Below are positions 18,904 through 32,362 of a stretch of 32,514 bases of DNA, piece after piece. The position numbers were made by a program, and so were the translations under genes. The notes beneath the pieces are model-generated. The model was not told where the DNA came from and made no database searches. It worked only from the letters and a program-made list of their open reading frames with translations. How positions within the stretch are numbered: position 1 is the first letter of the stretch; every line of letters begins with the position of its first letter. The stretch is from a virus: IMG/VR virus record IMGVR_UViG_3300042401_001018, positions 1-32,514 of that record; one strand, 5' to 3'.

Positions 18904-18936
18904 TTGTCAATGTTTGTTAGGCATGTATTGTTTGAT
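18904..18936 (+). promoter_or_regulatory. Promoter-like region A (start of the small-gene region)
   Basis: TTGTCA (18904-18909), a 16-nt spacer and TATTGT (18926-18931) fit a sigma-70-type promoter with a start near 18938. The TGTTTGAT at 18929-18936 is shared with regions B and C. It lies in the 133-nt gap before the first small gene (18956). Confidence 0.5.
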
Positions 18937-18955
18937 CAATCCAATCAATCCCAAC

Positions 18956-19210
18956 ATGAAGATCAACACCACCCAGCCGTTCACCCTCACCCTCACCCAG
19001 CGGATCGCCGCCGGTCGCTATCTGGCCCGCCACAAGGATCGCCTCGCCAAAGCCGATCCGGTCAATGTCCATTACCGCACCGGCCTTCGCCTTCGCCTCG
19101 AAGCCCTTGAACGCGGCCTCGCCAATGTGGATGCCCACGCCTCCGGCAAGGAAGTGACCTTCACCACCGATGATTGGCACTACGTAATGATCGCCGCCGA
19201 ACTCGGCTAA
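18956..19210 (+). CDS. Hypothetical protein, first gene of small-gene block A
   Basis: The protein has 84 residues. It has a basic N-terminal half (TQRIAAGRYLARHKDRLAKA) and a helix (LRLRLEALERGL), ending with an aromatic stretch (FTTDDWHYVMIAAELG). It is small enough to be an early host-modulating protein, but no family is recognised. Its ATG follows CAATCCCAAC; an upstream in-frame ATG at 18914 would sit inside the promoter. Codon use is strongly C-ending, suggesting high expression. Confidence 0.65.
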   Translation: MKINTTQPFTLTLTQRIAAGRYLARHKDRLAKADPVNVHYRTGLRLRLEALERGLANVDAHASGKEVTFTTDDWHYVMIAAELG

Positions 19211-19248
19211 TCCTTTCCACCCAACACCAACCCACACCACCCACCAAC
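19211..19248 (+). promoter_or_regulatory. C/A-rich translation leader (example)
   Basis: A 38-nt gap of almost only C and A with no internal Shine-Dalgarno, ending CCACCAACATG. It begins with the TCCTTTCCACC form of the leader shared by more than 20 genes. Confidence 0.6.
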
Positions 19249-19485
19249 ATGGCCCTCCGCAAAGGCAAACTCACCATCAAACAGGAAGCCAAGATCAAGG
19301 CTTTCACCATCAACGGCAAGCAGGTCGCCGATGAGATCTGGTACGAATCCGACTTCGACGAAGTGAGCATCTGGATCTCGCTCCGCGATGGCTTCAACTT
19401 CGATGGATGCTCCTGCGTTCACGAAGGATCCTTCCGGGAAGCGATGGAGTCGCTCGACTGTGTCAGCGAAGGCGAACCCTACTAA
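19249..19485 (+). CDS. Hypothetical protein
   Basis: The protein has 78 residues. A basic first helix (MALRKGKLTIKQEAKIKAF) is followed by acidic, aromatic beta-like segments (VADEIWYESDFDEVSIWISLRDGFNFDG) and two cysteines (C55, C57) in DGCSCVHEG plus one later. No family is recognised. It starts behind a C/A leader. Confidence 0.65.
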   Translation: MALRKGKLTIKQEAKIKAFTINGKQVADEIWYESDFDEVSIWISLRDGFNFDGCSCVHEGSFREAMESLDCVSEGEPY

Positions 19486-19516
19486 CCCACCAACCAACTT
19501 CACCCACCACACCAAC

Positions 19517-19708
19517 ATGAACAACAACGACAAACTCGCCGATCTCCGGATCGAGAAGACCAAGTACGAGAACCAAGTGATCGAGATCCACAACCGACTG
19601 CTGACCGAGACGAACATGGCCAACATCCTCCGGATGATGAGCCAGAAGCGTGCCCTCGCCGATCGCATCCGCGAGATCTCCTACAAGATCACTCTCATCA
19701 CCAACTAA
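19517..19708 (+). CDS. Small helical hypothetical protein
   Basis: The protein has 63 residues, predicted to be helical throughout, with charged heptad-like spacing (KLADLRIEKTKYENQVIEIHNRLL). It would form a coiled-coil dimer. No family is recognised. The start follows a C/A leader (caccacaccaac). Confidence 0.65.
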   Translation: MNNNDKLADLRIEKTKYENQVIEIHNRLLTETNMANILRMMSQKRALADRIREISYKITLITN

Positions 19709-19734
19709 CCCTTCACCACCAACACCACACAAAC

Positions 19735-20154
19735 ATGATCAATATCCAACCGCACCAGATCTTCGCCTTCGACATGGCCGACTTTATGATGCGAGGCGAA
19801 TCCTTCTCGGAGATCCGCGAGATCTTCCGGAATGGCATCAAGGAATTCACCGCCTACGAGCATCTCGAATCCGGGCAGGAAGCCATCACTCTGATCAAGC
19901 GACAAATCGCCGAGATGCAGAGCGAACGCCTTGACGTGATCTACGTCCGGGACAATTCCAAGTACGGAACCGAGAAGCACAAGAAGGCAGTGATCCGGGA
20001 AGAACAGATCTTCGACAAGGAACGTGCCCTGCTGTTTGTCGCGAAATGCTACAAGCACGAGATCCACAAACGAGTGCTCGGATCCGCCTACATGATGTGC
20101 ATTTGCGAACAGATCACCGAGGGCGACATCGAGGACATGGCCAACAACATCTAA
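19735..20154 (+). CDS. Hypothetical helical protein
   Basis: The protein has 139 residues and is mainly helical and charged: SFSEIREIFRNGIKEF, EAITLIKRQIAEMQSE, KAVIREEQIFDKERALLF, with a C-terminal helix containing two cysteines (MMCICEQITEG). No family is recognised. It is preceded by a C/A leader. Confidence 0.65.
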   Translation: MINIQPHQIFAFDMADFMMRGESFSEIREIFRNGIKEFTAYEHLESGQEAITLIKRQIAEMQSERLDVIYVRDNSKYGTEKHKKAVIREEQIFDKERALLFVAKCYKHEIHKRVLGSAYMMCICEQITEGDIEDMANNI

Positions 20155-20179
20155 CCTTCACCACTAACCTACCACCAAC

Positions 20180-20545
20180 ATGACTGAATACCGAGTAACC
20201 AAGCGGATCCTCTCCGGCACTTTCGCCGGAATGGATCGGAGCGAGATCACCAACGTGCACTTTGAAGTGGGCTTCAAGTGCGAGGAATGGGCTTACGGAC
20301 CGCCTTACCTTGTGATCGCGTGCGAGCCGTACGATCGAACCAAGGATCTGCACGAAGACATGATCCGGGCCGCGAGGATCCTCTCGATCATCGCAAACAA
20401 ATTTGCCAAAGCGTATCAAGACCAAGACATCTCCGGGATCTCCGCTGAATCGCCCTTCAACGAAGACAGCGAGACCTTGATCGATGCCGCCAAGCGATTG
20501 ATCGAACGCGAGCAGAACTTTTGGAAGCACATCGATGGCCGCTGA
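20180..20545 (+). CDS. Hypothetical protein
   Basis: The protein has 121 residues. A beta N-terminus (YRVTKRILSGTFAG, NVHFEVGFKCEEWAYGPPYLVIACEPY) is followed by helices (LHEDMIRAARILSIIANKFAKAY). It could be a small alpha/beta protein. No family is recognised. Confidence 0.65.
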   Translation: MTEYRVTKRILSGTFAGMDRSEITNVHFEVGFKCEEWAYGPPYLVIACEPYDRTKDLHEDMIRAARILSIIANKFAKAYQDQDISGISAESPFNEDSETLIDAAKRLIEREQNFWKHIDGR

Positions 20546-20579
20546 TCCGGATCTCTCTAACCCCAGGCACCCAACCAAC

Positions 20580-20960
20580 ATGACCGACATCAAGAAGATC
20601 AAGGGCTACGGAATTGGAAACCACGCCGTCACAGTGGCGATGGCCGACATCCCGACCAAGACCAAGACCATCCATCGACTCGAACTGACCGCCTACAAGA
20701 TCCGGAAGGATTACCAGAACAGTGCTGTCACGGAGATCACCAAGCAGACCCTCCGGGATCTCGCAGGTGCGTACAGAGAGCATCTTGCCTTCCTCACGCC
20801 GGACATGTTCCGGATCAAGCGGAAGGAAGATCCGGGCACGCACAAGAAAGTGGCCTACGCTTTGAAACTGCACAACGCAGTGGTAGATCTGCGATGGAAC
20901 AACCAAACCTTCATCGATAGCGGAGACATCGATCTGATCCCGGAACCGGCGAACATCTAA
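20580..20960 (+). CDS. Hypothetical protein
   Basis: The protein has 126 residues of alpha/beta character with a basic middle (RIKRKEDPGTHKKVAYALKLHNAV). The ATG at 20580 is chosen because ccaaccaac precedes it; an in-frame ATG at 20535 lies within the previous gene. No family is recognised. Confidence 0.65.
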   Translation: MTDIKKIKGYGIGNHAVTVAMADIPTKTKTIHRLELTAYKIRKDYQNSAVTEITKQTLRDLAGAYREHLAFLTPDMFRIKRKEDPGTHKKVAYALKLHNAVVDLRWNNQTFIDSGDIDLIPEPANI

Positions 20961-20982
20961 CCTCTCACCCATACCAACCCAC

Positions 20983-21237
20983 ATGAAAAACAAAACCAAA
21001 CTAATCCGATTCGAATTGCACTTCGCATCTTACTCGCTCGATGAAGTGGAGAACCGCAGGTGCGAATCCCGGCCCATCTTCATCAATCCGGCCTACGTGA
21101 TCAGCGTTTTGCCCATAGCGATTCCATCCGGGCAACCTTATCGATCTTCCGCGATCGTAAGCGAGATCGTCACCACCAATGGCTTTTGGCGAGTGGACTG
21201 CGATGTGCAGACTGTGATCGATTGCCTCTCCGTCTAA
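20983..21237 (+). CDS. Hypothetical protein
   Basis: The protein has 84 residues and is beta-rich: LIRFELHFASYSLDEVE, PIFINPAYVISVLPIAIP, AIVSEIVTTNGFWRVDCDVQTVIDCL. This looks like a compact beta protein with a final helix. No family is recognised. Confidence 0.65.
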   Translation: MKNKTKLIRFELHFASYSLDEVENRRCESRPIFINPAYVISVLPIAIPSGQPYRSSAIVSEIVTTNGFWRVDCDVQTVIDCLSV

Positions 21238-21250
21238 CACGACACGCAAC

Positions 21251-21562
21251 ATGGACGCAGTAATGATCAAAATGAAACCGGCCTCGCACCGGTACCCCTG
21301 CCGATTCTTCGCATCGATCGAGATGCGAGACGGAACACGCATCAAGGCCACCAAGCCATTCAACCACACGCTTGATCGAGACTCCCGGCATCATCCGGTG
21401 CTGATCGAGATCGCGAAACAGATCGCAGATTGGAATTCCGAAAACGGCATACCGATGCTCGATGACAAATACGAGCCTCTGTACAACCTCGACAATTGGC
21501 TTTGTCGCCGGATCGGGAAAGACCAAGTGGCATGCATCTACACCCACATCGTACAACTATGA
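21251..21562 (+). CDS. Hypothetical protein
   Basis: The protein has 103 residues, alpha/beta, with a DGTRIKATKPF hairpin and a helix VLIEIAKQIADWNSE. Its stop overlaps the next gene start (ATGA at 21559). No family is recognised. Confidence 0.6.
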   Translation: MDAVMIKMKPASHRYPCRFFASIEMRDGTRIKATKPFNHTLDRDSRHHPVLIEIAKQIADWNSENGIPMLDDKYEPLYNLDNWLCRRIGKDQVACIYTHIVQL

Positions 21563-21897
21563 CCTCGCATCCATTCAACACTGCCTTCGAACAGGCCGCA
21601 CATTCGCAATCCGGCGATGATCTGAAAGTGCGACATCAGCATTTACTGACAGCCGCAAACATGATGCTCGCCAATATGCACCTGCTTAAAATCAGCCAAG
21701 CAAGAAGCCACATGATCGTGCTCATCCGGCATACCTTGATCGAGAACAACACGCTGATGATGTATCAAAAGAATGGATACAAAGAAACCGACCGCGACAT
21801 CATCGATCTGGAACTGATCCGGGCAGGGAGGGCATTGTGCCAAGGCATCGGGCGGTGCATCCTCTCCGGCAGGGTGCGGTTTGATGTAGAATCATAA
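21559..21897 (+). CDS. Hypothetical helical protein
   Basis: The protein has 112 residues, helical, with a long amphipathic run of Met, Leu and Ala (LTAANMMLANMHLLKISQARSHMIVLIRHTLIE). It is the last gene before control region B and overlaps its predecessor by 4 nt. No family is recognised. Confidence 0.6.
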   Translation: MTSHPFNTAFEQAAHSQSGDDLKVRHQHLLTAANMMLANMHLLKISQARSHMIVLIRHTLIENNTLMMYQKNGYKETDRDIIDLELIRAGRALCQGIGRCILSGRVRFDVES

Positions 21898-21926
21898 CAC
21901 GCGAAGCCCAGCAAGACCAAGCCCAG

Positions 21927-22063
21927 CCGACATCGAATTACGCTCAACTTATTTGAACCCCGGCCAGCCGACATGGAAACCACGAGAGATCAGCAAACGT
22001 CAATAAATCCGGGCGTGGCAACGGGCAAAACAATCGACAGGCTATTGATACATTTTGTTTGAT
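21927..22063 (+). promoter_or_regulatory. Control region B (blocks shared with region C)
   Basis: Within the 238-nt gap 21898-22135 are: CCGACATCGAATTA (21927-21940) with a related CCGACATGGAAA at 21968-21979; GGCGTGGC (22012-22019); AAAACAATCGACA (22027-22039); and TTGATA (22045-22050), five bases, then TGTTTGAT (22056-22063). The same blocks occur in region C. I propose a promoter with operator sites. Confidence 0.5.
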
Positions 22064-22106
22064 AAGGTTTAGCAGACATGATCTTATTGATCCATCGAGA
22101 GCACTT

Positions 22107-22135
22107 TCACCCAAACCAAAAAACAAAACACCACC
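22107..22135 (+). promoter_or_regulatory. C/A-rich translation leader (example, block B)
   Basis: It starts TTTCACCC and continues with only A and C (ccaaaacaaaacaccacc-type) to the ATG at 22136. It closely resembles the leader at 24640-24676. Confidence 0.6.
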
Positions 22136-22540
22136 ATGACCCAGATCAAGAACATCCACACGACCGCCCCGGAATACTTCGCCGCCACGAAGCAGGTGCT
22201 CGACACTCCGGAATACAACCGGATCTGCAAGAAGGTTTCCGCCTTCTACGACAAGAAGCGGAAGATCGAGAAGCGTGAGCGTGCCGCCTCTGATCGCCGC
22301 TTCAAGATCGCCACCGATCTGATCTCCGCCCGCGAATCCGGCTGTTACTCGGACGTGACCGGCCCCCTCGAAGCGAAGAAGAAGGAACTCGATGCCAAGA
22401 TCGACTCCCTCCGCTTCAAGGAAAAGGAAGCCCACACGGAAGCCCTCCGGTACCTCGATGCCCAGATCGCCCTCCGGGAAGAACTGCTGACCCTCGCTGG
22501 TCTGCCCCTCGCTTGGATCTGGACCCCGACCGCCCGCTAA
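22136..22540 (+). CDS. Coiled-coil hypothetical protein, first gene of block B
   Basis: The protein has 134 residues, helical and charged (FYDKKRKIEKRERAASDRR; KELDAKIDSLRFKEKEAHTE), with a short hydrophobic C-terminus (LAGLPLAWIW). Heptad spacing suggests a dimer. An alternative ORF from 22078 lies in another frame across the leader and is not supported. Codon use is C-ending. No family is recognised. Confidence 0.65.
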   Translation: MTQIKNIHTTAPEYFAATKQVLDTPEYNRICKKVSAFYDKKRKIEKRERAASDRRFKIATDLISARESGCYSDVTGPLEAKKKELDAKIDSLRFKEKEAHTEALRYLDAQIALREELLTLAGLPLAWIWTPTAR

Positions 22541-22575
22541 TCCGGATCACCACCTTCACCACCAACACCACGAAC

Positions 22576-22788
22576 ATGAACCTCACCCCCGAAACCACCG
22601 AACTGACCTTCGATCTGCTTGGCGAAGCCGGAACGAGCATCCACATGCGGAAAATCGATCTCACCAACGAACTCCAACAAGCCAAGTGGCAGATCGACCG
22701 CATCGAACGCGAACTCCGCCAAATTATCGCCCTCGATAAGAAGATCCACGAATTCAAGATGAGCGTGATCCGCAAGGAAATTAAGTGA
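22576..22788 (+). CDS. Small helical hypothetical protein
   Basis: The protein has 70 residues: a short beta start (TTELTFDLLGEAG), then a long charged helix (ELQQAKWQIDRIERELRQII). Its leader contains ggatcaccaccttcacc, similar to the sequence at the 3' end of 16S rRNA itself. No family is recognised. Confidence 0.65.
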   Translation: MNLTPETTELTFDLLGEAGTSIHMRKIDLTNELQQAKWQIDRIERELRQIIALDKKIHEFKMSVIRKEIK

Positions 22789-22823
22789 TCCCGGCCATCC
22801 ACACCTTCACCACACCAACCGAC

Positions 22824-23042
22824 ATGACCAACCAAGACGTTATCTCCGCCTCGACCACCCTCTACGTGGACTCCGGCGATGCCATCGAGATCTTGCAGAA
22901 GATCCGCGAGGCCAACAAGAACTCGTGGGCCAAGACCGCCGCGAATGTCGCCGAGATCGATCAATCGATCCGGGAACTCGCCAAGGCCCAAGCGATCCTC
23001 CGCAAGATGCGTGAGAGGGCTACCACCCGGATCTCCTACTAA
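22824..23042 (+). CDS. Small helical hypothetical protein
   Basis: The protein has 72 residues, helical after residue ~16 (GDAIEILQKIREANKN; EIDQSIRELAKAQAILRKMRE). It shares size and layout with the genes at 19517 and 22576, though no clear sequence identity is visible. It follows a CCTTCACC leader. Confidence 0.65.
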   Translation: MTNQDVISASTTLYVDSGDAIEILQKIREANKNSWAKTAANVAEIDQSIRELAKAQAILRKMRERATTRISY

Positions 23043-23076
23043 CCTTCACCCTAACATCATACCAACCCACACGAAC

Positions 23077-23340
23077 ATGAACACGCACTTCAATAACACG
23101 ATCACCCGGTACCGAGAGATGGCCGATGCCATCCCGGAATCGTGCGGCGAGCCGATGATCCACAAGCATTGGTCGCTGATGACCGAGGACGAGAAGACCA
23201 TCGCGATCTGGTACCTCCGGAACCACAACACCTCGATGACTCGCACCCGCATCGCCGGTCACGCGATCGGCTGCTACATCAAGGAACACGGCACGATCAC
23301 CGAGGAAAAGATGAACGAGATCTTTTACTCGATCGTCTAA
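23077..23340 (+). CDS. Hypothetical protein
   Basis: The protein has 87 residues and is helical with His, Trp and Tyr residues (MIHKHWSLMTEDEKTIAIWYLRNHN). No family is recognised. Confidence 0.65.
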   Translation: MNTHFNNTITRYREMADAIPESCGEPMIHKHWSLMTEDEKTIAIWYLRNHNTSMTRTRIAGHAIGCYIKEHGTITEEKMNEIFYSIV

Positions 23341-23372
23341 CAAATCCACCCAACCCAAACCACACCAACACA

Positions 23373-23570
23373 ATGCGAACCACCATCCCGGAACTCACCC
23401 GCAAGGACTTCAAGTACATCGCCCGCATCATCAGCGAACTGCCGGTCGATCCGGAGCAGAAGAAGAAGATCGCGATCCATTTCGCCGATCGCCTCCGGTA
23501 CACGAACCAAGCCTTCAAACACGCGACCTTCATCGAAGCGAGCACGATCGAAACCGAAGACAAGATCTAA
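23373..23570 (+). CDS. Hypothetical protein
   Basis: The protein has 65 residues, basic and helical (TRKDFKYIARIISELPVDPEQKKKIAIHFADRL). The ATG at 23373 is chosen for its C/A leader (cacaccaacaca). No family is recognised. Confidence 0.65.
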   Translation: MRTTIPELTRKDFKYIARIISELPVDPEQKKKIAIHFADRLRYTNQAFKHATFIEASTIETEDKI

Positions 23571-23574
23571 CAAC

Positions 23575-23763
23575 ATGACCACCCGCGAATACCACAAGCA
23601 TCTGATCAAGATCGCCAAGGACGAATTGGACAAGGCCCACGCTGATCTGAAAAGCATCCGGGAAACCTCTCACATGGACTTTGAGATCGAGGAAGCCGAA
23701 GACAACGTTTGGGCAACTCAATCGGCTCTTTTCTTCATCAAGCGGAATCCTCCGATCAACTAA
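23575..23763 (+). CDS. Hypothetical protein
   Basis: The protein has 62 residues and is helical (HLIKIAKDELDKAHADLKSI), with a short hydrophobic C-terminus. The stop is followed by only one base (c) before the next ATG. No family is recognised. Confidence 0.6.
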   Translation: MTTREYHKHLIKIAKDELDKAHADLKSIRETSHMDFEIEEAEDNVWATQSALFFIKRNPPIN

Positions 23764-23764
23764 C

Positions 23765-24001
23765 ATGGCTCAACCAAACAACATCCATCCGAAACTCGAA
23801 CGTCTCGATGGCCTACAAGACAAGAACAACGAATACCTCCGCGAAGAATTCTCGCCCCGCCGATGCGAGTGCTGTGGAGATCTTCCCGGAGAAAGATACA
23901 TCGTGCGTGCCCACTATTGGAATAAGCGTGCCAAGAATGGATCTTCGATGATGAGAGGCAAATTCAGCGTATGCCCGCAGTGCATCTACGATTGGCAGTG
24001 A
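23765..24001 (+). CDS. Zinc-ribbon-like small protein
   Basis: The protein has 78 residues. A CECCGDLPG knuckle (C34, C36, C37) and a second CPQC pair near the C-terminus (positions ~70-73) suggest one zinc site in a treble-clef or ribbon fold, with a basic stretch between (YWNKRAKNGSS). It may bind nucleic acid or protein; the family is not recognised. Confidence 0.55.
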   Translation: MAQPNNIHPKLERLDGLQDKNNEYLREEFSPRRCECCGDLPGERYIVRAHYWNKRAKNGSSMMRGKFSVCPQCIYDWQ

Positions 24002-24013
24002 ACCGACACGAAT

Positions 24014-24301
24014 ATGACCTACATCAACACTGATCCGGATCGCGAGACGATGATCGAATACATCAACACGCTACCCTGCCTTGACCGAGAAGGATTGCAG
24101 GACGACATCGAGATCGCGATCTACGCTTTCACAATCTCGCACTACTCCGGCCAATTCTCGAATCTCTACAAGGCATTGTGCATGTCGCGATTCGATCCAC
24201 GAGGAACAGAGATCGATCCATATTGGCTACACAATAATGCACCGCAAGCATTTATGATCTGCAAAGAATTGATCGCTAAATTTACCAAGCCCACTTCGTA
24301 A
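24014..24301 (+). CDS. Hypothetical protein
   Basis: The protein has 95 residues, helical, with Asp/Glu-rich N-terminus and aromatic residues (HYSGQFSNLYKALCMSRF). It is the last convincing gene before control region C. No family is recognised. Confidence 0.6.
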   Translation: MTYINTDPDRETMIEYINTLPCLDREGLQDDIEIAIYAFTISHYSGQFSNLYKALCMSRFDPRGTEIDPYWLHNNAPQAFMICKELIAKFTKPTS

Positions 24302-24308
24302 TTACAAA

Positions 24309-24515
24309 ATGAATACATCGACCGACATCATCGATCTGATCCCGGAGATCCCGGAAGGCATAATCCGGGCGGACAATCGATCCGGGACCGCCACAAATCT
24401 ACCGGGACGACCATTTCCCGGAGACGGACCGGCTCAAAGCGACCAATGGCTACCGACATCGAATAAGGCGTGGCTTTTAATGACCCCGGCGTTCCTACCG
24501 CAAAACCCACTGTGA
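24309..24515 (+). CDS. Doubtful ORF in the block B/C gap
   Basis: A 68-residue frame whose middle (RADNRSGTATNLPGRPFPGDG) is Pro/Gly/Asn-rich. It lacks the C/A leader (attacaaaATG only). Its 3' end runs into control region C (the 24453-24466 block and the 24496 repeat). It is more likely non-coding. Confidence 0.2.
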   Translation: MNTSTDIIDLIPEIPEGIIRADNRSGTATNLPGRPFPGDGPAQSDQWLPTSNKAWLLMTPAFLPQNPL

Positions 24516-24603
24516 TCAGCAAAGGCCGACTCCGCCGACATAGGACTGACGTAAAACAATCGACAACAATCTACCGCTATTCGCTTGATAAGCCTTGTTT
24601 GAT
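24453..24603 (+). promoter_or_regulatory. Control region C (blocks shared with region B)
   Basis: CCGACATCGAATAA (24453-24466), GGCGTGGC (24467-24474), TACCGCAAAACCCACT (24496-24511), AAAACAATCGACA (24553-24565), then TTGATA (24585-24590), five bases, TGTTTGAT (24596-24603). A further TATTGT at 24614-24619 may be a -10. It precedes the block C leader and the ATG at 24677. Confidence 0.5.
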
Positions 24604-24676
24604 GATCATTGTCTATTGTGTCGGAGGGAAACCCCGATCAAAACCAAAAAACCAAAACCCAAACCAAAGCACACAA

Positions 24677-24961
24677 ATGACTAACTACCAAATCAACCGC
24701 CTCGACACGATCCTCCGCGAGAATGGCATCTCGATGATCTGCTCCACCCTCGCCGGTGAACAGTCCGGATTCATCTACCAATTCGATTCCCTCAACACGG
24801 AGAACCCGGTGCACGAGTGGTTCACCAAGAACACGCAGATCAAGGGCGACACCTACCGCACCGAAACGATCTACTCGGCTTTCGTGCCTTCCGGGAAGTG
24901 GACCGAACTCGTGGCCTTCTTGCAGATCCCGGCCTCTAACCCCCGCCTCGCCATCCGCTAA
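24677..24961 (+). CDS. Hypothetical protein, first gene of block C
   Basis: The protein has 94 residues, alpha/beta, with beta hairpin elements (GEQSGFIYQFDSLN; TYRTETIYSAFVPSG). The ATG at 24677 lies at the end of a long A/C-only leader. No family is recognised. Confidence 0.65.
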   Translation: MTNYQINRLDTILRENGISMICSTLAGEQSGFIYQFDSLNTENPVHEWFTKNTQIKGDTYRTETIYSAFVPSGKWTELVAFLQIPASNPRLAIR

Positions 24962-24999
24962 TCCCGGATCATCGCTAACCTCTCACCACCCACACGAAC

Positions 25000-25320
25000 A
25001 TGATCATCGAAGACATCACCGATCCGGAATCGATCACCGCCGCCATCAAGACGATGGAGGCTGACATGAAGGCGATGCAGAAGGCTCTCGCCTCTTTCAA
25101 GAAGAACAAGGCTCTGATCAAGAAAGTGGCCGCCGCCCAACATGATGGCCGGATTGATACCACCAAGGCCACCGAATTCTACAACCGCATCCGGGAAAGC
25201 ATCCGGGGCGATCTGATCGTCATTCAAGAGCGTGGCTTCTGCCTTGGCCAAGGCGACCTCGGCCAAGACCACGATGAAGTTGCCTCGATCTTTTCCTTCC
25301 GGTGCATCGCCACCCGCTAA
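25000..25320 (+). CDS. Hypothetical protein
   Basis: The protein has 106 residues. A charged helix (AAIKTMEADMKAMQKALASFKKNKALIKKV) is followed by a Gly/Asp-rich region (LGQGDLGQDHDE). Coiled-coil formation is likely. No family is recognised. Confidence 0.65.
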   Translation: MIIEDITDPESITAAIKTMEADMKAMQKALASFKKNKALIKKVAAAQHDGRIDTTKATEFYNRIRESIRGDLIVIQERGFCLGQGDLGQDHDEVASIFSFRCIATR

Positions 25321-25334
25321 TCTCTAACACGAAC

Positions 25335-25655
25335 ATGAGCACATTCAAAATGAAGACCTACGCGAACAACCGAATCCCAACCGAGGCCGAGATCCTCGCC
25401 GTCGCCACGATGACGATCCCGGAGATCAAGGTACAGCACTTGCTCTGGTTTAAGTGCCTCAACAGTTTCGCCATCGAACAGATCTGGACCGAATCGTGCC
25501 TCAACCGCATCCGGTACTCGATCGCAAAGCAGGAACGCCGGAACGCGTGGCTCTTTCCGATCTACCAACGCCTGCCGAAGACCGACATGATCCGGACTGA
25601 ACGAAACAAGATGATGCTCGCCCTCTGCCTCCGCCAGCACGCACTCTCCGCCTAA
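25335..25655 (+). CDS. Hypothetical protein
   Basis: The protein has 106 residues, helical and basic, with several Arg/Lys pairs (SIAKQERRNAWLFPIYQRL). It could bind nucleic acid or a host protein. No family is recognised. Confidence 0.6.
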   Translation: MSTFKMKTYANNRIPTEAEILAVATMTIPEIKVQHLLWFKCLNSFAIEQIWTESCLNRIRYSIAKQERRNAWLFPIYQRLPKTDMIRTERNKMMLALCLRQHALSA

Positions 25656-25672
25656 CCTTCACCCACACCAAC

Positions 25673-25945
25673 ATGCACACTGATCAAGAACAGCGGACCA
25701 TCCTCCGGGAAGCCGTCCGCAAATTCATTCACCACCAGAAGATTGCTACTGATCTGCTCGACCAGATTAATGCGATCGGCCTTCTTGAAAATGAGGGGAA
25801 CCCGTTTACTCGATCGATCAAAGGCGAAGATGATCTTCACGCGACCATCGGCCTCCGGGGCAAGCGGATCTTTGCCTCCGGAGAATTCGCCGACATCATC
25901 GAGAACATGAAGCGAACCGCCGACATGAACGGCCACATCGTCTAA
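25673..25945 (+). CDS. Hypothetical protein
   Basis: The protein has 90 residues, helical at the N-terminus (LREAVRKFIHHQKIATDLLDQINAIG), then beta (FTRSIKGEDDLHATIGLRGKRIF). Its stop is one base before the next ATG. No family is recognised. Confidence 0.65.
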   Translation: MHTDQEQRTILREAVRKFIHHQKIATDLLDQINAIGLLENEGNPFTRSIKGEDDLHATIGLRGKRIFASGEFADIIENMKRTADMNGHIV

Positions 25946-25946
25946 T

Positions 25947-26135
25947 ATGTCGCTCGTCAAACTCTCACAGGCACAGATGGATGCCCTCGATCGCTTGAAG
26001 GCGATTGGCTGGACCTTGGACCTATCCACAATGCAGAACCTGCCCTGCGAATTGGCAATCTCAATTTGCTGCAAAGGGCAATCCGGCATGCTGATGTATT
26101 TTGTGATCGAGCCGGATGGCTACACTCACTCTTAA
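25947..26135 (+). CDS. Hypothetical protein
   Basis: The protein has 62 residues, with amphipathic helices followed by a beta end (GMLMYFVIEPDGYTHS). No family is recognised. Confidence 0.6.
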   Translation: MSLVKLSQAQMDALDRLKAIGWTLDLSTMQNLPCELAISICCKGQSGMLMYFVIEPDGYTHS

Positions 26136-26155
26136 CCTTTCACCCACCCACAAAC
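26136..26155 (+). promoter_or_regulatory. C/A-rich translation leader (example)
   Basis: cctttcacccacccacaaac directly before the ATG at 26156: a clean copy of the CYTTTCACCC...AAC-ATG form, free of G. Confidence 0.6.
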
Positions 26156-26392
26156 ATGACCAAACAAACCAGATCCGGATTCCGTAAGGATCCGACCAAA
26201 CAGAAAAACAAAGACTACGTCACGATCACCGGGACTGTGAGCAAGGAGATCTACAACCTGCTCCGCACCGAATCGATGATCGCAAACATGAGCATCTCCG
26301 GCTTGATCGGCGATCGGATCATTCCGGATCGTTACAAGCATGTGATCTGGCTCTCGCCCAAGAAGAACCCGAACCGCAACAAACATGCCTAA
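26156..26392 (+). CDS. Ribbon-helix-helix-like small basic protein
   Basis: The protein has 78 residues. After a basic N-terminus (TKQTRSGFRKDPTKQKNK), a strand YVTITGTV is followed by two short helices (SKEIYNLLRTESM and MSISGLIGDRI), the order of a ribbon-helix-helix DNA-binding domain. The C-terminus is again basic. A small regulator acting on the phage's own control regions is plausible but unproven. The last 8 nt overlap the next gene. Confidence 0.45.
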   Translation: MTKQTRSGFRKDPTKQKNKDYVTITGTVSKEIYNLLRTESMIANMSISGLIGDRIIPDRYKHVIWLSPKKNPNRNKHA

Positions 26393-26927
26393 CTGGTGCG
26401 AAAACAAACTGATCATCCGGGCAGACCGACAGATGATCGAGCAGATCTCCGCAGATGCGGAGCACAAAGGATTCGATAACGATGGCCCGACCACCTTGGA
26501 TTTTCGCAGGATCATTCCGGAACCCAAGTACCCGGACGACCAAGCATGGTATGAATGGCGATGCGAAAATTGGGGCACCAAGTGGAACGCTACCGGGATC
26601 ACCCGAACCATCGACATCTCCGGCGACAAAGGCACGCTGACCTATACCTTCGACACAGCATGGTCGCCGCCTCTCCGGATCTACCAAGCGATTATCCACA
26701 AATACAAAACCATCTGCATGGAGGTTTACTACTTCGAGGGCGGATGCGATTTCGCAGGACTGATCGTGCAGAATGAATCCGGAGAAGTGGAACAGGAACA
26801 CATCAACAGTTGTCGCAACGCTTACCTCGACAGTGATCCGGACTTCCAGCGAATCAGTGAACAGATCGGGATCGATTGCTCGCTCTATTTTAGCGACATG
26901 GAAGATCCGGAGGAAGGATCAAACTGA
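26385..26927 (+). CDS. Api92-like / DUF1281 ferredoxin-like-fold protein
   Basis: The protein has 180 residues. The N-terminal signature MPNWCENKLII, followed by a NWGTKWNATG motif (res ~62-72) and a TYTFDTAWSPPLRIYQAI motif (res ~86-103), is that of the DUF1281 family (ferredoxin-like domain in Api92-like proteins), found in many phages and plasmids. Their function is unknown; a role in host inhibition or defence modulation has been suggested. The C-terminal ~50 residues are acidic (YLDSDPDFQ, DMEDPEEGS). It starts inside the previous gene. Confidence 0.75.
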   Translation: MPNWCENKLIIRADRQMIEQISADAEHKGFDNDGPTTLDFRRIIPEPKYPDDQAWYEWRCENWGTKWNATGITRTIDISGDKGTLTYTFDTAWSPPLRIYQAIIHKYKTICMEVYYFEGGCDFAGLIVQNESGEVEQEHINSCRNAYLDSDPDFQRISEQIGIDCSLYFSDMEDPEEGSN

Positions 26928-26928
26928 C

Positions 26929-27207
26929 ATGGCCTACATCAAACTCGAACCGCATAAGATCTTCCGGCATGCAATCACCCGCACGACCAAAGCCGGGAAG
27001 ATCACTTACTCCGAAAACAAACTGCGTCACATACTAATGCTACATCACGAATGGGATCACGAAACCGCAGACGAGTGGCTCAACTACAACATTTATGGAC
27101 TCGTACATACCAGCACATTCTCTATCGAAACCAAAACAAATGAAATACTCACTTCTACTGCTCTGCTCGACATTGTTAATTATTCCGACAACGACAAAAG
27201 CAATTGA
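26929..27207 (+). CDS. Hypothetical protein preceding the lysin
   Basis: The protein has 92 residues with a basic, His-rich middle (KLRHILMLHHEWDHETADEW). It starts 1 nt after the DUF1281 stop. The lytic transglycosylase start (27140) lies 68 nt inside its 3' end in another frame. No family is recognised. Confidence 0.6.
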   Translation: MAYIKLEPHKIFRHAITRTTKAGKITYSENKLRHILMLHHEWDHETADEWLNYNIYGLVHTSTFSIETKTNEILTSTALLDIVNYSDNDKSN

Positions 27208-27601
27208 ACCGCGTTGGCTTGATTGGATCGAGGCCGAGGAAAGCAATCACCGCCCCGGAGCCATCGGAGACAATGGGAAGGCCATCGGGCTATTTCAATT
27301 CCACGAAGCCGCGTGGATCCATACATCGGAGATCCGGAGGAAGAAAGGAAAGCCCACCTACCCGTACGCTTATGCTTACAACCAATCAATTAACAAGGCA
27401 TACGCCGTGGATTGGCTTGAATGGCATGAAGAACAACTAACCAAGAGACTCGGAAGATCGCCCAACATCGGAGAATTATTCGCATCGCACAATTTGGGGT
27501 TGCAAGGATTCGCAAACAAGGCATACCTTCTTAATCGCACAAGGCTATCAACAAGAACAGTCGCATACCGACTAATCTTGAAAGACAAACTTTCCAAATG
27601 A
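27140..27601 (+). CDS. Secreted lytic transglycosylase (endolysin candidate)
   Basis: The protein has 153 residues. Residues 1-21 are a Sec signal peptide (MKYSLLLLCSTLLIIPTTTKA). The mature domain has the SLT-type layout: catalytic Glu34 in WIEAEESNHRPGAIG, then the GK-AIGLFQFHEAAW motif (res 47-59) and a helix pair ending in HNLGLQGFANKAYLL. It would cleave the glycan strand of peptidoglycan with 1,6-anhydro formation. Secretion by the host Sec system means it does not strictly need the holin. It is coded far from the holin region. The start is embedded in the previous gene, yet still has an A/C leader (accaaaacaaATG). Its stop overlaps the next start by 4 nt. Confidence 0.8.
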   Translation: MKYSLLLLCSTLLIIPTTTKAIEPRWLDWIEAEESNHRPGAIGDNGKAIGLFQFHEAAWIHTSEIRRKKGKPTYPYAYAYNQSINKAYAVDWLEWHEEQLTKRLGRSPNIGELFASHNLGLQGFANKAYLLNRTRLSTRTVAYRLILKDKLSK

Positions 27602-28053
27602 TTAACTACATCGCAATCGATCCCGGCAAAAATGGAGGCATCGCCTACATTGAAGATGAGCAGGTGCGAACCTTGCCAATGCCGGAGGATCTCGGAGAGA
27701 TCTGCTCTTTCTTCAACGAACAGCGAATGAAGAACAAAGACATTACCCTTGTGATCGAGGACATTCCGAAATTCGTGCGATTCATTCCGGGATCCACTGT
27801 CGCCGTAATGTTTTACAATTACGGATACATGTGCGGAGCCGCACAAATGGCCCGGTGCAAGATCGTCAAAGTGACTCCGCAGAAATGGCAGAAAGACTTT
27901 TCACTCGGCACGAAAGGCGACATGACCGACTCGCAGTGGAAAAACAAATTGAAAGCCGAAGCATCCCGGCTCTACCCAACCATCGACAACCTCACACTTA
28001 AAACCTCGGACGCGTTGCTGATTCTCGAATACGCCCGGAGGAACAACCTTTGA
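27598..28053 (+). CDS. RuvC-like Holliday junction resolvase
   Basis: The protein has 151 residues, close to phage RuvC-like length. Acidic catalytic residues visible: Asp8 in YIAIDPGKNGG, Glu54 in LVIEDIP, and Asp138 in TSDALLILEYARR. Also seen is a Q-K-W motif (VTPQKWQKDFS) typical of RuvC-like phage nucleases. It resolves recombination branches before packaging. It overlaps the transglycosylase stop (ATGA). Confidence 0.85.
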   Translation: MINYIAIDPGKNGGIAYIEDEQVRTLPMPEDLGEICSFFNEQRMKNKDITLVIEDIPKFVRFIPGSTVAVMFYNYGYMCGAAQMARCKIVKVTPQKWQKDFSLGTKGDMTDSQWKNKLKAEASRLYPTIDNLTLKTSDALLILEYARRNNL

Positions 28054-28073
28054 TCCCAACCAACAACACAAAC

Positions 28074-28274
28074 ATGACTGAACTCAACACCCAACCTATC
28101 GCTACGGAGATCGTCAAGATCCTCGGCACGCCTTACATCGTTATCAACAAGACGACTGTGGCTCGCGTATTGAAGCCCACCACGATGGGACGCAAGGAAT
28201 ACTATGCCGTACGATTCGGCAAGAAGACCAAGCGAAAGACGATCGACAACATCCTCGAAGCGATGAAGGAATAA
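28074..28274 (+). CDS. Small basic hypothetical protein
   Basis: The protein has 66 residues, alpha/beta with a basic run (RFGKKTKRKTIDNIL). The ATG at 28074 follows caacacaaac. It lies between the resolvase and RecT-like genes, so a recombination accessory role is possible. Confidence 0.6.
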   Translation: MTELNTQPIATEIVKILGTPYIVINKTTVARVLKPTTMGRKEYYAVRFGKKTKRKTIDNILEAMKE

Positions 28275-28292
28275 CTTTCACCCACACACACA
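28275..28292 (+). promoter_or_regulatory. C/A-rich translation leader (example)
   Basis: actttcacccacacacaca (from the preceding stop to the ATG at 28293) contains no G and matches the leader seen before many small genes. Confidence 0.6.
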
Positions 28293-29063
28293 ATGCACAA
28301 CCAAGAACAACAAGGGGACATCGTGCCCCAACACTACGCCGGAGAGATCTACGACAAGATCGCGAATCCTCTCGATGCGATCAAGGCCATCGGACAGAGC
28401 ATCGCCCAATCCGGCCTTTTCGGATGCACCAAGCAAGAGCAGGGAGAGATCCTTGCGATGCAGTGCCTTGCCGAAAGGAAACCCCCGCTGGAATTAGCGA
28501 AGACCTACCATCTGATTGATGGGAAACTCGCGATGAAGGCTGATGCGATGCTCGCACGCTTTCAAGAAATGGGCGGTCGCGTAGATTGGAAGATCCGGAA
28601 TGAAAAGTGCGTCACCGCAATCTTTTCGCTAAATGGATCCTCCGCAGAGATCGTGGCCACGCTGGACGAATACATCGCCAATGGCGTAGCGATCGGCAAG
28701 GACGGCAAGAGCATCAAGGACAATTGGAAGAAGTGGCCGAAGCGTATGCTGACCGCACGAGCGATTTCGGAAGGCGTGCGATTGATCGGACCGCAGGTTT
28801 GCTTTGGAACCTACACTCCGGAGGAACTCGACACGAACGACAACGTGACGAAGACCTTGCAGGTGATCCCGGAATACCCGGTGGAGGAATTTATCGCACT
28901 GCTGAAAGACAGGAAGATCTCGATCGAATCCGCAGAGCAGGTGCTTCTCCGGACCAACAACCTTTCTCCGGGGCAGAAGATCGATGATCTCGACCCGCAG
29001 ATCGCGAGCAAGATCGTCAAGCGTCCGGATGGATTCATTCTTTCCTGCCAACAGCAGAACTAA
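28293..29063 (+). CDS. RecT-like single-strand annealing protein
   Basis: The protein has 256 residues, typical for phage RecT. Family-like stretches: EILAMQCLAERKPPLELAKTYHLIDGKLAMKADAMLARFQ (first helical block), a central beta-rich 'VDWKIRN...CVTAIFSLNGSSAEIVATLDE' section, and KDNWKKWPKRMLTARAISEGVRLIGP, which matches the conserved RecT helix. The C-terminus is less conserved. It anneals single strands and works with the exonuclease two genes downstream. Its leader is actttcacccacacacaca. Confidence 0.8.
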   Translation: MHNQEQQGDIVPQHYAGEIYDKIANPLDAIKAIGQSIAQSGLFGCTKQEQGEILAMQCLAERKPPLELAKTYHLIDGKLAMKADAMLARFQEMGGRVDWKIRNEKCVTAIFSLNGSSAEIVATLDEYIANGVAIGKDGKSIKDNWKKWPKRMLTARAISEGVRLIGPQVCFGTYTPEELDTNDNVTKTLQVIPEYPVEEFIALLKDRKISIESAEQVLLRTNNLSPGQKIDDLDPQIASKIVKRPDGFILSCQQQN

Positions 29064-29064
29064 T

Positions 29065-29328
29065 ATGCCCGTCATTCGCAAACATCACCCGGTCAGCAAA
29101 GGCAAAAGCGATTATCTCCGGGACGCGGCTGGTCATTACCTTTCCGAATTCCCGGAGAAGTGGACCGGAGAGCAGATCATCAAGCATCTCGAAAGCGAGA
29201 AGTACCAAGAAAACAAAAGGATCATGCATTGGTTTCCTTTCGAGGGATACGATGGTCAACAATTAGCCGAATACATCCGGAACCTCGCAGGATCTTTTGC
29301 ATTTTATCACTCTCTACCCAAACCCTAA
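29065..29328 (+). CDS. Hypothetical protein of the recombination module
   Basis: The protein has 87 residues with a basic N-terminus and a Trp/Phe/Tyr-rich C-terminal half (RIMHWFPFEGYDGQQLAEYIRN). It starts 1 nt after the RecT-like stop. Context suggests a recombination accessory factor; no family is recognised. Confidence 0.6.
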   Translation: MPVIRKHHPVSKGKSDYLRDAAGHYLSEFPEKWTGEQIIKHLESEKYQENKRIMHWFPFEGYDGQQLAEYIRNLAGSFAFYHSLPKP

Positions 29329-29339
29329 CCCACACAAAC

Positions 29340-30107
29340 ATGGAATACAAAGACATCAACGCGGTGAATTTCAGCACACTGAAATACATCCTACGCTCAC
29401 CGGCCCACTACAAGCACATTCTCGAAAATCCGCCGAAGCAGTCGGACGAGATGCGAATCGGATCGCTGATCCACCTCGCCGCACTCGAACCGGAGCGATA
29501 CCTCAACATCGTAAAGGTGGCCCCGGATTGCGATCGCCGTACGAAGGAAGGCAAAGCGATCTTCGAAGCATTCAAGCAATCGTGCAATCCCGGCGATGAG
29601 ATCATCACCGAGGACGACAAGATCTTGATCGATTCGTGCTCACTGTCGGCTCGTGCCGCGATTTCCCGGCTCGCATTCGTAAACCCGCAGAACGAAGTAC
29701 CTCTCACCACCGAGATCTCCGGGATCAACATCAAGGGCCGATTGGACATCATTGATAGCACCCGGAATGAGATCGCAGACATCAAGACGTGCGATGACGC
29801 ATCACCATCCGCAGTCGCCCGCACGATCGTCAATTACAACTACCATATGCAACAGGCTATGTATAAGCGACTCTCCGGGCAGTCGCTCGACACGCGTGCC
29901 TTCTTGATCTTCATCGAGAAGAAGCCGCCTTATTGCTGGAAGATCTACTCGATGGATCCGGAGATGCTCGAAGCAGGGAACAAACTTTTCGAACGTGCCT
30001 TGACGATCTACAACGAATGCCTCGCATGGGGCAATTGGCCGGGGTATACCTCGAACATCGAAACCATTTCCTTGCCCAAGTGGGCATTGAACAACCAAAC
30101 CGAATAA
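29340..30107 (+). CDS. RecE-like PD-(D/E)XK exonuclease (DUF3799-type)
   Basis: The protein has 255 residues. The PD-(D/E)XK nuclease of the RecB/RecE kind shows GSLIH (res 41-45, H45), a helix with a conserved Tyr/Arg region, GRLDII with D136, IADIKT with D147 and K149, and the YNYHMQQAMY motif (Q171). It resects double-stranded ends to give 3' overhangs for the RecT-like partner. Leader: cacacaaac before the ATG at 29340. Together with RecT, SSB and helicase it forms a recombination pathway. Confidence 0.82.
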   Translation: MEYKDINAVNFSTLKYILRSPAHYKHILENPPKQSDEMRIGSLIHLAALEPERYLNIVKVAPDCDRRTKEGKAIFEAFKQSCNPGDEIITEDDKILIDSCSLSARAAISRLAFVNPQNEVPLTTEISGINIKGRLDIIDSTRNEIADIKTCDDASPSAVARTIVNYNYHMQQAMYKRLSGQSLDTRAFLIFIEKKPPYCWKIYSMDPEMLEAGNKLFERALTIYNECLAWGNWPGYTSNIETISLPKWALNNQTE

Positions 30108-30136
30108 CACCAACCCACCCAGAAAAAAAAAAGAAC

Positions 30137-30592
30137 ATGAAACTAAACCCAAAGCGTTTCGAACGTAATTGGATCACCGAACCCGGCGAGTACGAAGTGA
30201 CTGTCACCAAGGCAGAATTCGGCCTCACCAGCAAAGGCGATCACAAGGCCACGATCGAATTCGCCACTGACGATAACAAATCCGGTCGCGAGATGCTCAC
30301 CAGCGTCGAGCACCCGCAGTACGGCAACATCAACCTCGAACAGTACATCTGCTCGTGGATGAAGGAAGGCGAGAAGATCATCTACAAGGACAACGGAGCC
30401 GTTCGCGAGATCGTGCTCTCCGGAGAATCCGAGATCAACACGCAGAACGCGGCCACCTTCCGGGCCATCATCGAACACGGCATCAACAAGCGAATCAAGG
30501 TTACGTTGAAGCACCGCGAGTACGTGAAAGATGGCGTACCGAAGAAGATCCTCGCTGTGAGCCGTTGGAGCAAGAGCGATAACCCGTACTAA
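30137..30592 (+). CDS. Single-stranded DNA-binding-like protein (DUF669-like)
   Basis: The protein has 151 residues, a beta-rich OB-like first half (WITEPGEYEVTVTKAEFGLTSKGDHKATIEFATDD) followed by helical and basic sections. This 'PGxYxVxVxKAE' start and position between nuclease and helicase match phage DUF669/SSB-like proteins. An acidic C-terminal tail is not seen; it ends SKSDNPY. The leader includes an A-run (agaaaaaaaaaagaac). Confidence 0.6.
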   Translation: MKLNPKRFERNWITEPGEYEVTVTKAEFGLTSKGDHKATIEFATDDNKSGREMLTSVEHPQYGNINLEQYICSWMKEGEKIIYKDNGAVREIVLSGESEINTQNAATFRAIIEHGINKRIKVTLKHREYVKDGVPKKILAVSRWSKSDNPY

Positions 30593-30615
30593 AACAAGTG
30601 GCCGTCACGACCGAC

Positions 30616-32070
30616 ATGATCCTCCGGGATTACCAAACCGATGCAGTGAACTCGATCGTGGCGGCTCTTTCTTTAAACATCAACCCGTTGCTGGTCGCAC
30701 CGACCGGATCCGGGAAGACAGTAATGGCTTCCGCAGTAGCCAAACAAACAAATCTGCGGACCCTTTTCCTCGCCCACCGGCGAGAACTTATCAAGCAAGC
30801 CGAGGAAACATTTTCCCGGTACAACATCGATGCGGACTTCGACACAGTGCAGTCGGAGCCTTATGAACATGACGGACTGATCATCTTTGACGAAGCCCAC
30901 CACGCGGTCGCCGCGACATGGGATAAATGGAAACAGATGAATCCGGAATCACAAATGCTCGCAATCACTGCGACACCCGACCGGCTCGATCGCCGCAGAT
31001 TGGAAGACTCCGGCTTCGTCACTGTTAACGAGATCCACATCGCAGATCTTATCAAACGCGGACACCTTTCCGGGATCCGCAACATCACCCTCAACCTTGA
31101 ACTAAATCCGGGCGATGAGGACATGACCGACGAAGTGCTGTCGGAATTGGCCGACAAGATCGCAGAGGCCATCCGGTCGCATTCCCGGAGAGCAACAATC
31201 GCATTCCTGCCTCTCATCAAGACATCGCAAAGGTTTGCTCAAATGATGCGACAAAGAGGAATCCGGGCCGGTCACGCGGACGGCACTGACACGATCGACA
31301 TCGAGAGGTACAAATCCGGCGAGATCGAAATGATCTGCAATTCATCGCTACTGACAGAAGGATTCGATGCACCAAAAACAGATTGCGTCATTCTTCTCCG
31401 GCCTACCGAATCGCGTGCCCTTTATTCGCAGATGATCGGCAGAGGACTGCGGACCTGTGAAGGAAAAGATTACTGCATCGCCATCGATCCGCTATGGCAG
31501 TCGAACAAACATTCGCTCGCCACCCCGGAATCAATTTTTGGATCAGACGAACAAATACTAGCGGAGGCCCGCAAGGACAAGAAGCCCGGAACGTTAGAAG
31601 ATCCTACCCAGAAACTCGCAGAGGCAGTGGCCCGCCGCGAAGCGGATCTTGCGAGAAGGATTGCCGAGGCGGAACTACTCCGGCAAGAAAAACAAGCGAG
31701 GATCGAGAACCGACAAGAACAAATACGGCAGATCGAAAGAAAGAAAGCCCGCAAGAAACTCGCAGGGAGAAACATCCTTTCGATGGTCGGCCTTTTTCAT
31801 TACCCGGCTCCCGGAAGACCATCCGACAAAGATTGCGAGATGCTTGATCGGCTCGGCTTCGACAGCGATGAATGCGGAGGCGGAAACCAAGCGACCGAAA
31901 TTGCCACCGACCTTCTTGATCGAAAAGCCAATCGACTTGCAAGCCTTCCTCAAATTAGAGCGATGCATCGCCTCCGGTGCAACTTCACCGCCCACACGAC
32001 AGTCGCAGAAGCATCCGCACTTCTTGATTCAGAGATCAAGCGAAGGCAACGATTCCGATACCGCCGATAA
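30616..32070 (+). CDS. SF2 (DEAD/DEAH-type) DNA helicase
   Basis: The protein has 484 residues from the ATG at 30616. Motif I APTGSGKT (res 28-35), motif Ia FLAHRRELIKQ, motif II DEAH (res 92-95), motif III-like AITATP, and the C-terminal motifs IV-VI (LLTEGFDAP; QMIGRGLRTCEGK) define an SF2 helicase resembling phage DEAD/DEAH and restriction-type helicases. The C-terminal third is a charged helical and coiled extension (from ~residue 320) rich in Glu/Arg/Lys, probably interaction-related. An in-frame GTG at 30598 would add six residues. It unwinds DNA during replication or recombination. Confidence 0.85.
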   Translation: MILRDYQTDAVNSIVAALSLNINPLLVAPTGSGKTVMASAVAKQTNLRTLFLAHRRELIKQAEETFSRYNIDADFDTVQSEPYEHDGLIIFDEAHHAVAATWDKWKQMNPESQMLAITATPDRLDRRRLEDSGFVTVNEIHIADLIKRGHLSGIRNITLNLELNPGDEDMTDEVLSELADKIAEAIRSHSRRATIAFLPLIKTSQRFAQMMRQRGIRAGHADGTDTIDIERYKSGEIEMICNSSLLTEGFDAPKTDCVILLRPTESRALYSQMIGRGLRTCEGKDYCIAIDPLWQSNKHSLATPESIFGSDEQILAEARKDKKPGTLEDPTQKLAEAVARREADLARRIAEAELLRQEKQARIENRQEQIRQIERKKARKKLAGRNILSMVGLFHYPAPGRPSDKDCEMLDRLGFDSDECGGGNQATEIATDLLDRKANRLASLPQIRAMHRLRCNFTAHTTVAEASALLDSEIKRRQRFRYRR

Positions 32071-32089
32071 ACTTTCCACCCACACAACA
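32071..32089 (+). promoter_or_regulatory. C/A-rich translation leader (example)
   Basis: actttccacccacacaaca directly before the ATG at 32090: same form as the leaders upstream, free of G. Confidence 0.6.
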
Positions 32090-32362
32090 ATGCAAAAACC
32101 CACACCAACGGAGATCATTAACAAGATCTCCAAAAACATCCACGAGGCTGGATTCTACACGCCGAACTTTCTACCTATTGCCCGCCAATTGAACGCGGAC
32201 ATCCGGGATTTGAAAGAACTCGCCCAACGCACAGAGATGGCCGAAGGCATGTGCGAGGACATGTACCTTTACCTTACCCATCTTGAAAAAGATCCGACAT
32301 TGATCGATAAGGCTCACATTCAAACCTTGTGCTGTGCCTACCGAGCATTCTTTCTCAAATGA
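32090..32362 (+). CDS. Hypothetical protein
   Basis: The protein has 90 residues, helical with acidic Met-rich middle (ELAQRTEMAEGMCEDMYLYLTHLEKD) and a C-terminal pair of Cys (TLCCAYRAF). It follows the helicase and overlaps the next start by 4 nt. No family is recognised. Confidence 0.6.
   Translation: MQKPTPTEIINKISKNIHEAGFYTPNFLPIARQLNADIRDLKELAQRTEMAEGMCEDMYLYLTHLEKDPTLIDKAHIQTLCCAYRAFFLK

Follow-up and report, generated by a model that had tools for sequence, protein, structure and literature searches.

How gene starts are signaled when Shine-Dalgarno (SD) sites are missing is the question raised by the early region of a phage genome in IMG/VR (record IMGVR_UViG_3300042401_001018, positions 1 to 32,514; this whole stretch of 32,514 nucleotides is called the window below). 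On its left side, the 32.5-kb window encodes lambda-like head and tail functions; on its right side lies an early module, where about 20 genes are preceded by leaders made almost only of C and A. The favored reading, with a probability of roughly 0.62, is that these leaders serve as strong sites of SD-independent translation initiation, in which an unstructured tract is combined with a Kozak-like context of A at −6 and A at −3.

C/A leaders at early gene starts

The leaders were scored over the 25 nt upstream of the 35 gene starts in the right half (positions 18937 to 32362). At most one G was present in 18 of the 35 leaders compared to 2 of the 193 other ATGs of that half, and at least 21 of the 25 nucleotides were A or C in 17 of the 35 compared to none of the 193; the mean A+C content of the 35 leaders was 0.80. 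The 18 coordinates that had been named in an earlier, sequence-only reading are all ATG starts with at least 19 of 25 A+C and no more than two Gs each, so the claim of C/A-only leaders at about 20 right-half genes holds. A scan of the whole window for runs of at least 23 A+C in 25 nt found 14, each of them in the right half, on the + strand, and either at a gene start or continuing into one; none was found on the − strand or in the left 18.9 kb. The C/A leader type is confined to the early region. It is not explained by local composition, because the short right-half spacers (G, 0.042; A, 0.352; C, 0.499) oppose the third codon positions of the right-half genes (G, 0.275; A, 0.168) for both G and A. 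The reading frames are real, as the called frame was the best fit to a codon-position model in 34 of the 35 right-half genes. A TTG start at 27204 was rejected, its frame failing the coding test; the gene there is 27140-27601.

SD-like 4-mers (GGAG/GAGG/AGGA type, about 4 to 20 nt upstream) were found at 1 of 35 right-half starts, in keeping with the view that the shared leaders replace SD sites, and at 2 of 23 left-half starts. These sites are rare in both halves, and therefore SD loss is a phage-wide trait. The statement that the pattern marks one half of the genome only is thus correct for the C/A leaders, of which the left half has none, and incorrect for the lack of SD sites. That lack is not itself the special feature, since it extends over the whole phage and since SD-scarce Verrucomicrobia, with a conserved CCUCC, have been reported as well (PMC10783764). 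With regard to leaderless mRNAs, in which a gene start has no 5′ untranslated region (UTR), most of the C/A genes are downstream members of closely spaced same-strand clusters.

Start context, distal element, and folding

Two further features recur in the leaders. First, among the 25 leaders with at most two Gs, A was found at −6 in 21 and at −3 in 21. At both positions, A is more constant than the A/C composition of these leaders would give (p = 4.4e-6 and 1.4e-5, respectively), and A is enriched at both over the 193 internal ATGs (p = 2e-7 and 6e-9). The shared leader ending that had been noticed from the letters does exist, but its better form is the consensus A(-6) C(-5) N A(-3) A(-2) C(-1) ATG. 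Second, a distal CTAACCYTTCACC-like element recurs, often 2 to 3 nt past the upstream stop codon, in which case the TAA is part of the element. TTCACC occurs in 10 of 30 leaders (40 nt each), compared to 0.5 expected from shuffled sequences and a maximum of 4 in 5,000 shuffles, and other leaders have CTCACC or TTCCACC forms. With the low-G counts given above, the recurrence is far beyond chance. The leader of gene 19735 is near-identical to that of gene 22576 (family D12). No paralogous pair was found at E < 0.05 among the proteins encoded downstream of the leaders; since they are unrelated, the likeness of the leaders is not due to gene duplication, and duplicated cassettes of gene plus leader were ruled out.

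The predicted mean folding energy in 49-nt windows was about −0.6 kcal/mol at C/A starts compared to about −10 on both sides, and the predicted unpaired fraction at −20 to −1 was 0.82 at C/A starts, 0.62 at left-half genes, and 0.45 at internal ATGs. The suggestion that G-free leaders are unstructured agrees with this predicted folding minimum. Right-half genes with a higher leader A+C content also tended to have stronger codon bias (Spearman 0.68, p = 7e-6).

16S rRNA and the leaders

A leader near 22545 had been thought to resemble the 3′ end of 16S rRNA. The look-alike, GGATCACCACC at 22544, is built from words common in the phage genes (CGGATC 35 times and GATCACC 18 times on the + strand), and mimicry was ruled out as a matter of chance. 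An unusual 30S ribosomal subunit, also proposed, is not indicated: three readable Verrucomicrobiota 16S genes, which do not include those of the nearest prophage-bearing genomes, have an ordinary GGATCACCTCCTTT tail. It is very improbable that the distal (C)TTTCACC would pair with GGUGAAA of the 16S 690 loop and so replace the SD/anti-SD contact. This loop, helix 23, lies by the mRNA exit path, and two of the three Verrucomicrobiota 16S genes do have GGUGAA, the complement of TTCACC, at Escherichia coli position 690. This is weak evidence, since about 32% of hexamers would find a match in some part of 16S and since the relatives of the phage have a distal element other than TTCACC. If true, such pairing would be a different way of mRNA-rRNA recruitment in an SD-scarce host.

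Host and relatives

The terminase has 38 to 41% identity over most of its length to proteins in ten Verrucomicrobiota genomes, and the portal has 44 to 50% in eight Verrucomicrobiota prophage loci; the nearest named phages include Verrucomicrobia phage P8625 and Akkermansia phage Moulinsart. The host thus probably belongs to the Verrucomicrobiota, a placement at the level of phylum only. The frequencies of C/A runs at gene starts were 8.9 per 10 kb in the right half of the window, compared to 0 in the left half and in P8625, 0.06 in the prophages, 0.05 in 398 kb of one prophage-bearing genome, and 0 in the ribosomal-protein operon regions of 20 Verrucomicrobiota genomes. For 289 Verrucomicrobiota genomes, the pattern M18-ATG was found at most 16 times per genome among those listed, compared to 5 times in the 32.5-kb phage. 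Host genes with the same leaders would have spoken against the earlier reading; the sampled Verrucomicrobiota genomes and prophages are almost without them, which favors that reading as far as these samples go, and a host-wide leader type was rejected on the same grounds. A loose TTCACC..AACATG pattern gave leader matches in the 289 genomes that were inseparable from coding matches. In viral contigs, a direct search with the long, exact form of the leader motif returned nothing beyond chance matches in AT-rich sequence.

Six close relatives (coat, about 75% identity; portal, about 60%; RecT, about 50%) have a homologous leader, with 0 or 1 G in 40 nt, before the SSB-like gene between the exonuclease and helicase genes. 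This leader begins at the upstream TAA, for example TAATTTCCACCCAAAACCCATAACCCACAACCCGATACCATAACATG, and stays G-free while its sequence varies. Some greedy gene calls in the GC-rich relatives are unreliable. Because the six relatives and the window phage share the low-G SSB leader, the C/A element is ancestral in the group and was multiplied in the window phage. In the six relatives (L393-L404), early and head genes are on opposite strands, but the window has the two groups together on the + strand. More distant RecT relatives (L172, L154, L178, and L115) have a few weaker C/A-only leaders of their own CCAACAACCAAC-like type; similar leaders may have arisen repeatedly.

Interpretation of the leaders

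If the leaders are SD-independent initiation regions, they may work as follows. The almost G-free tract of about 15 to 40 nt would keep the ribosome-binding region unfolded, and it holds no competing start codon, because ATG, GTG, and TTG all need G. The 30S subunit would favor A(-6)C(-5)N A(-3)A(-2)C(-1)AUG when the SD/anti-SD contact is not used, and the recurring distal element would mark the 5′ edge of the landing tract. In this way, the phage, with its presumed Verrucomicrobiota host, may give abundant early proteins high and uncoupled translation from polycistronic mRNAs. High expression is inferred because of the codon bias and the conserved SSB leader of the relatives.

Several points weigh against this reading. 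In 80 unambiguous genes of a prophage-bearing Verrucomicrobiota genome (G137), A was found at −3 and −6 at frequencies of 0.28 and 0.21, which is no preference, and the A-3/A-6 context is therefore not supported as a host rule. The −12 and −13 positions known from Flavobacterium are not clearly matched, with A in 11 of 25 leaders at each (p = 0.38 and 0.012, respectively, against internal ATGs). The other early leaders of the six relatives are ordinary, so the C/A type is not needed there. The gene starts were set by hand and simple rules without a gene-calling program, the leaders for the −6/−3 comparison were picked for low G, and codon bias reflects expression only indirectly.

An alternative that we consider unlikely, though deserving of some weight, is that the leaders are reinitiation corridors, in which ribosomes done with one gene would scan a start-free, unstructured spacer to the next AUG, aided in retention by the element on the stop side. 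In most cases with the element it does lie 2 to 3 nt past the upstream stop (19712, 20157, 23045, 25658, 26139, and 28277), G-free spacers can contain no ATG, GTG, or TTG, and the SSB leader of the relatives likewise begins at a TAA. However, the purest leaders are at the cluster-first genes 22136 and 24677 (238 and 161 nt from the previous gene), most genes with short gaps or overlaps have no C/A leader, and in two cases CTAACC lies away from the stop (20557 and 24975).

Less probable still is that the C/A tract is recognized by ribosomal protein S1, as the earlier reading had suggested, by another RNA-binding protein of phage or host, or by a small RNA (sRNA), with the genes forming a regulon. 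An element common to about 20 unrelated genes would fit this, and in enteric bacteria, CA-rich or ACA leaders are known to act as enhancers and as targets of sRNAs (PMC3879156). On the other hand, published proposals for S1 signals are of U-rich sequences (PMC5397173), none of the early proteins was recognized as a candidate RNA-binding protein, and the fixed −6/−3 positions suggest a signal tied to the start site and not a floating protein site. Similar boundaries of 24 to 38 nt before unrelated, unassigned small genes might also suggest recombination linkers for swapping small gene cassettes; this is highly doubtful, the leaders being alike in composition and start context more than in sequence, and the relatives holding the leader at the same gene and not at moving cassettes. 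Rho-utilization sites, i.e., C-rich, G-poor intergenic RNA for regulated termination or polarity, are hardly credible. Such sites are C-over-G stretches of about 70 to 80 nt, and the 78 nt before C/A starts do contain 7 to 27 more Cs than Gs (genome mean excess, 2.9; C/G, 1.5 to 4.9), but the G-free tracts are only about 15 to 40 nt, end exactly at AUGs with the fixed A-6/A-3, and would put a terminator before every operon gene. Finally, a functionless strand or regional composition bias, for which the strong C-over-G and A-over-T skew of the right half could be cited, is contradicted by the opposed third codon positions, by the fixed −6/−3 positions, and by the G-free SSB leader of the relatives, and is practically dismissed.

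Coordinates and other features of the window

Table 1 lists the genes and leaders. The A/C run before the exonuclease gene starts at 29314, within the end of the upstream gene.

TABLE 1 Genes and C/A leaders in the window
Feature	Position	Strand	Remarks
GpA terminase	2128-3975		Left module
Portal	4347		Left module
Protease	5873		Left module
Coat	7478		Left module
Tape measure	11127		Left module
Early region with C/A-leader genes	18956-32362	+	Mostly unassigned 60-140 aa proteins, plus RecT, exonuclease, SSB-like, helicase
RecT	28293		Right early module
Exonuclease	29340		Right early module
SSB-like	30137		Right early module
Helicase	30598		Right early module
Leader of gene 19249-19485	19211-19248	+	25/25 A+C, 0 G
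Leader of gene 19517-19708	19486-19516	+	TTCACC at 19499
Leader of gene 19735-20154	19709-19734	+	Upstream TAA + CCC + TTCACC at 19712
Leader of gene 20180-20545	20155-20179	+	TAA + CC + TTCACC at 20157
Leader of gene 20580-20960	20546-20579	+	Internal CTAACC at 20557
Leader of gene 20983-21237	20961-20982	+	CTCTCACCC variant of distal element
Leader of gene 22136-22540, first of second cluster	22106-22135	+	25/25 A+C; TTCACC at 22106
Leader of gene 22576-22788	22541-22575	+	TTCACC at 22555; chance 16S-like word at 22544
Leader of gene 22824-23042	22789-22823	+	TTCACC at 22806
Leader of gene 23077-23340	23043-23076	+	TAA + CC + TTCACC at 23045
Leader of gene 23373-23570	23341-23372	+	25/25 A+C
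Leader of gene 24677-24961, first of third cluster	24629-24676	+	
Leader of gene 25000-25320	24962-24999	+	CTAACCTCTCACC at 24975
Leader of gene 25673-25945	25656-25672	+	TAA + CC + TTCACC at 25658
Leader of gene 26156-26392	26136-26155	+	TAACC + TTTCACC
Leader of gene 28074-28274	28054-28073	+	
Leader of RecT-like gene 28293-29063	28275-28292	+	TAAC + TTTCACCC
Leader of exonuclease gene 29340-30107, start-proximal part	29329-29339	+	
Leader of SSB-like gene 30137-30592	30108-30136	+	Counterpart of the relatives' conserved G-free leader
Leader of gene 32090-32362	32071-32089	+	TAAACTTTCCACCC form, like the relatives' SSB leader

Positions 18956-27207 hold about 25 small early genes (60 to 140 aa) with hardly any recognizable family, and no relatives of the early small proteins were found by tblastn or peptide patterns. 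Codon bias in these clusters tends to be strongest near the cluster head and weaker toward the end. The long gaps 21898-22136 and 24430-24677, which precede C/A clusters, share CCGACATCGAAT, ACCCCGGC, GATCAGCAAA, AAAACAATCGACA, TTGATAAG, and AAACCAAAAAAC, which gives them the look of related regions with a promoter or regulatory role; TTGTTTGAT precedes all three clusters (near 18926, 22057, and 24596). A sigma-70 promoter scan was uninformative, with fewer sites than in shuffled sequences. Positions 693-1514 encode a predicted TET-associated glycosyltransferase (Pfam TAGT, E = 2e-12), and the phage DNA may therefore contain modified bases.

Comparison with known systems

These leaders bear on the question of how start codons are chosen in SD-scarce bacteria outside the Bacteroidota. 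One leader design occurs naturally about 20 times in a small phage and, as the ancestral copy, at a conserved gene of the relatives; together these make a ready reporter series for Verrucomicrobiota, and the leaders could yield strong expression elements for this phylum, including Akkermansia.

Each component has a known counterpart. Local unfoldedness is the start signal of genes without SD sites (Scharff et al. 2011, PMC3121790), and the phage shares with these the missing SD and the folding minimum at the start codon, predicted here; no conserved motif was reported there, whereas the phage has a repeated distal element and fixed −6/−3 positions. A at −3 and −6 are initiation determinants in Flavobacterium johnsoniae (PMC6847099), whose Kozak-like context has in common with the phage A at both positions, no SD, and low structure. 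However, the Bacteroidetes tract is A-rich, whereas that of the phage, with its presumed host in the Verrucomicrobiota, is C/A and G-free and does not clearly match at −12/−13. C-rich ribosome-binding sites have been obtained by in vitro selection and also observed in phages that infect other hosts (Barendt et al. 2012, PMC3310771); these are likewise C-rich, G-poor tracts right before the AUG in phage 5′ UTRs without SD. There, each phage has a single C-rich 5′ UTR, and significant 16S complementarity belongs to the type, whereas here one pattern recurs at about 20 genes and the 16S match is the one described above. The CA-rich or ACA enhancers of GcvB targets (PMC3879156) share the CA-rich leader sequence, predicted here to be single stranded, but act beside an SD, which the phage leaders do not have. 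Some Verrucomicrobia belong to the SD-scarce genomes with conserved anti-SD (PMC10783764), and the phage is SD scarce too; the portion of that report used here describes neither a C/A leader nor a start context, and the phage has both. What is new is therefore the combination and its repetition, as unfoldedness, A-3/A-6, C-rich sites, and ACA enhancers are each known, and the whole resembles SD-independent ribosome recruitment taken to an extreme.

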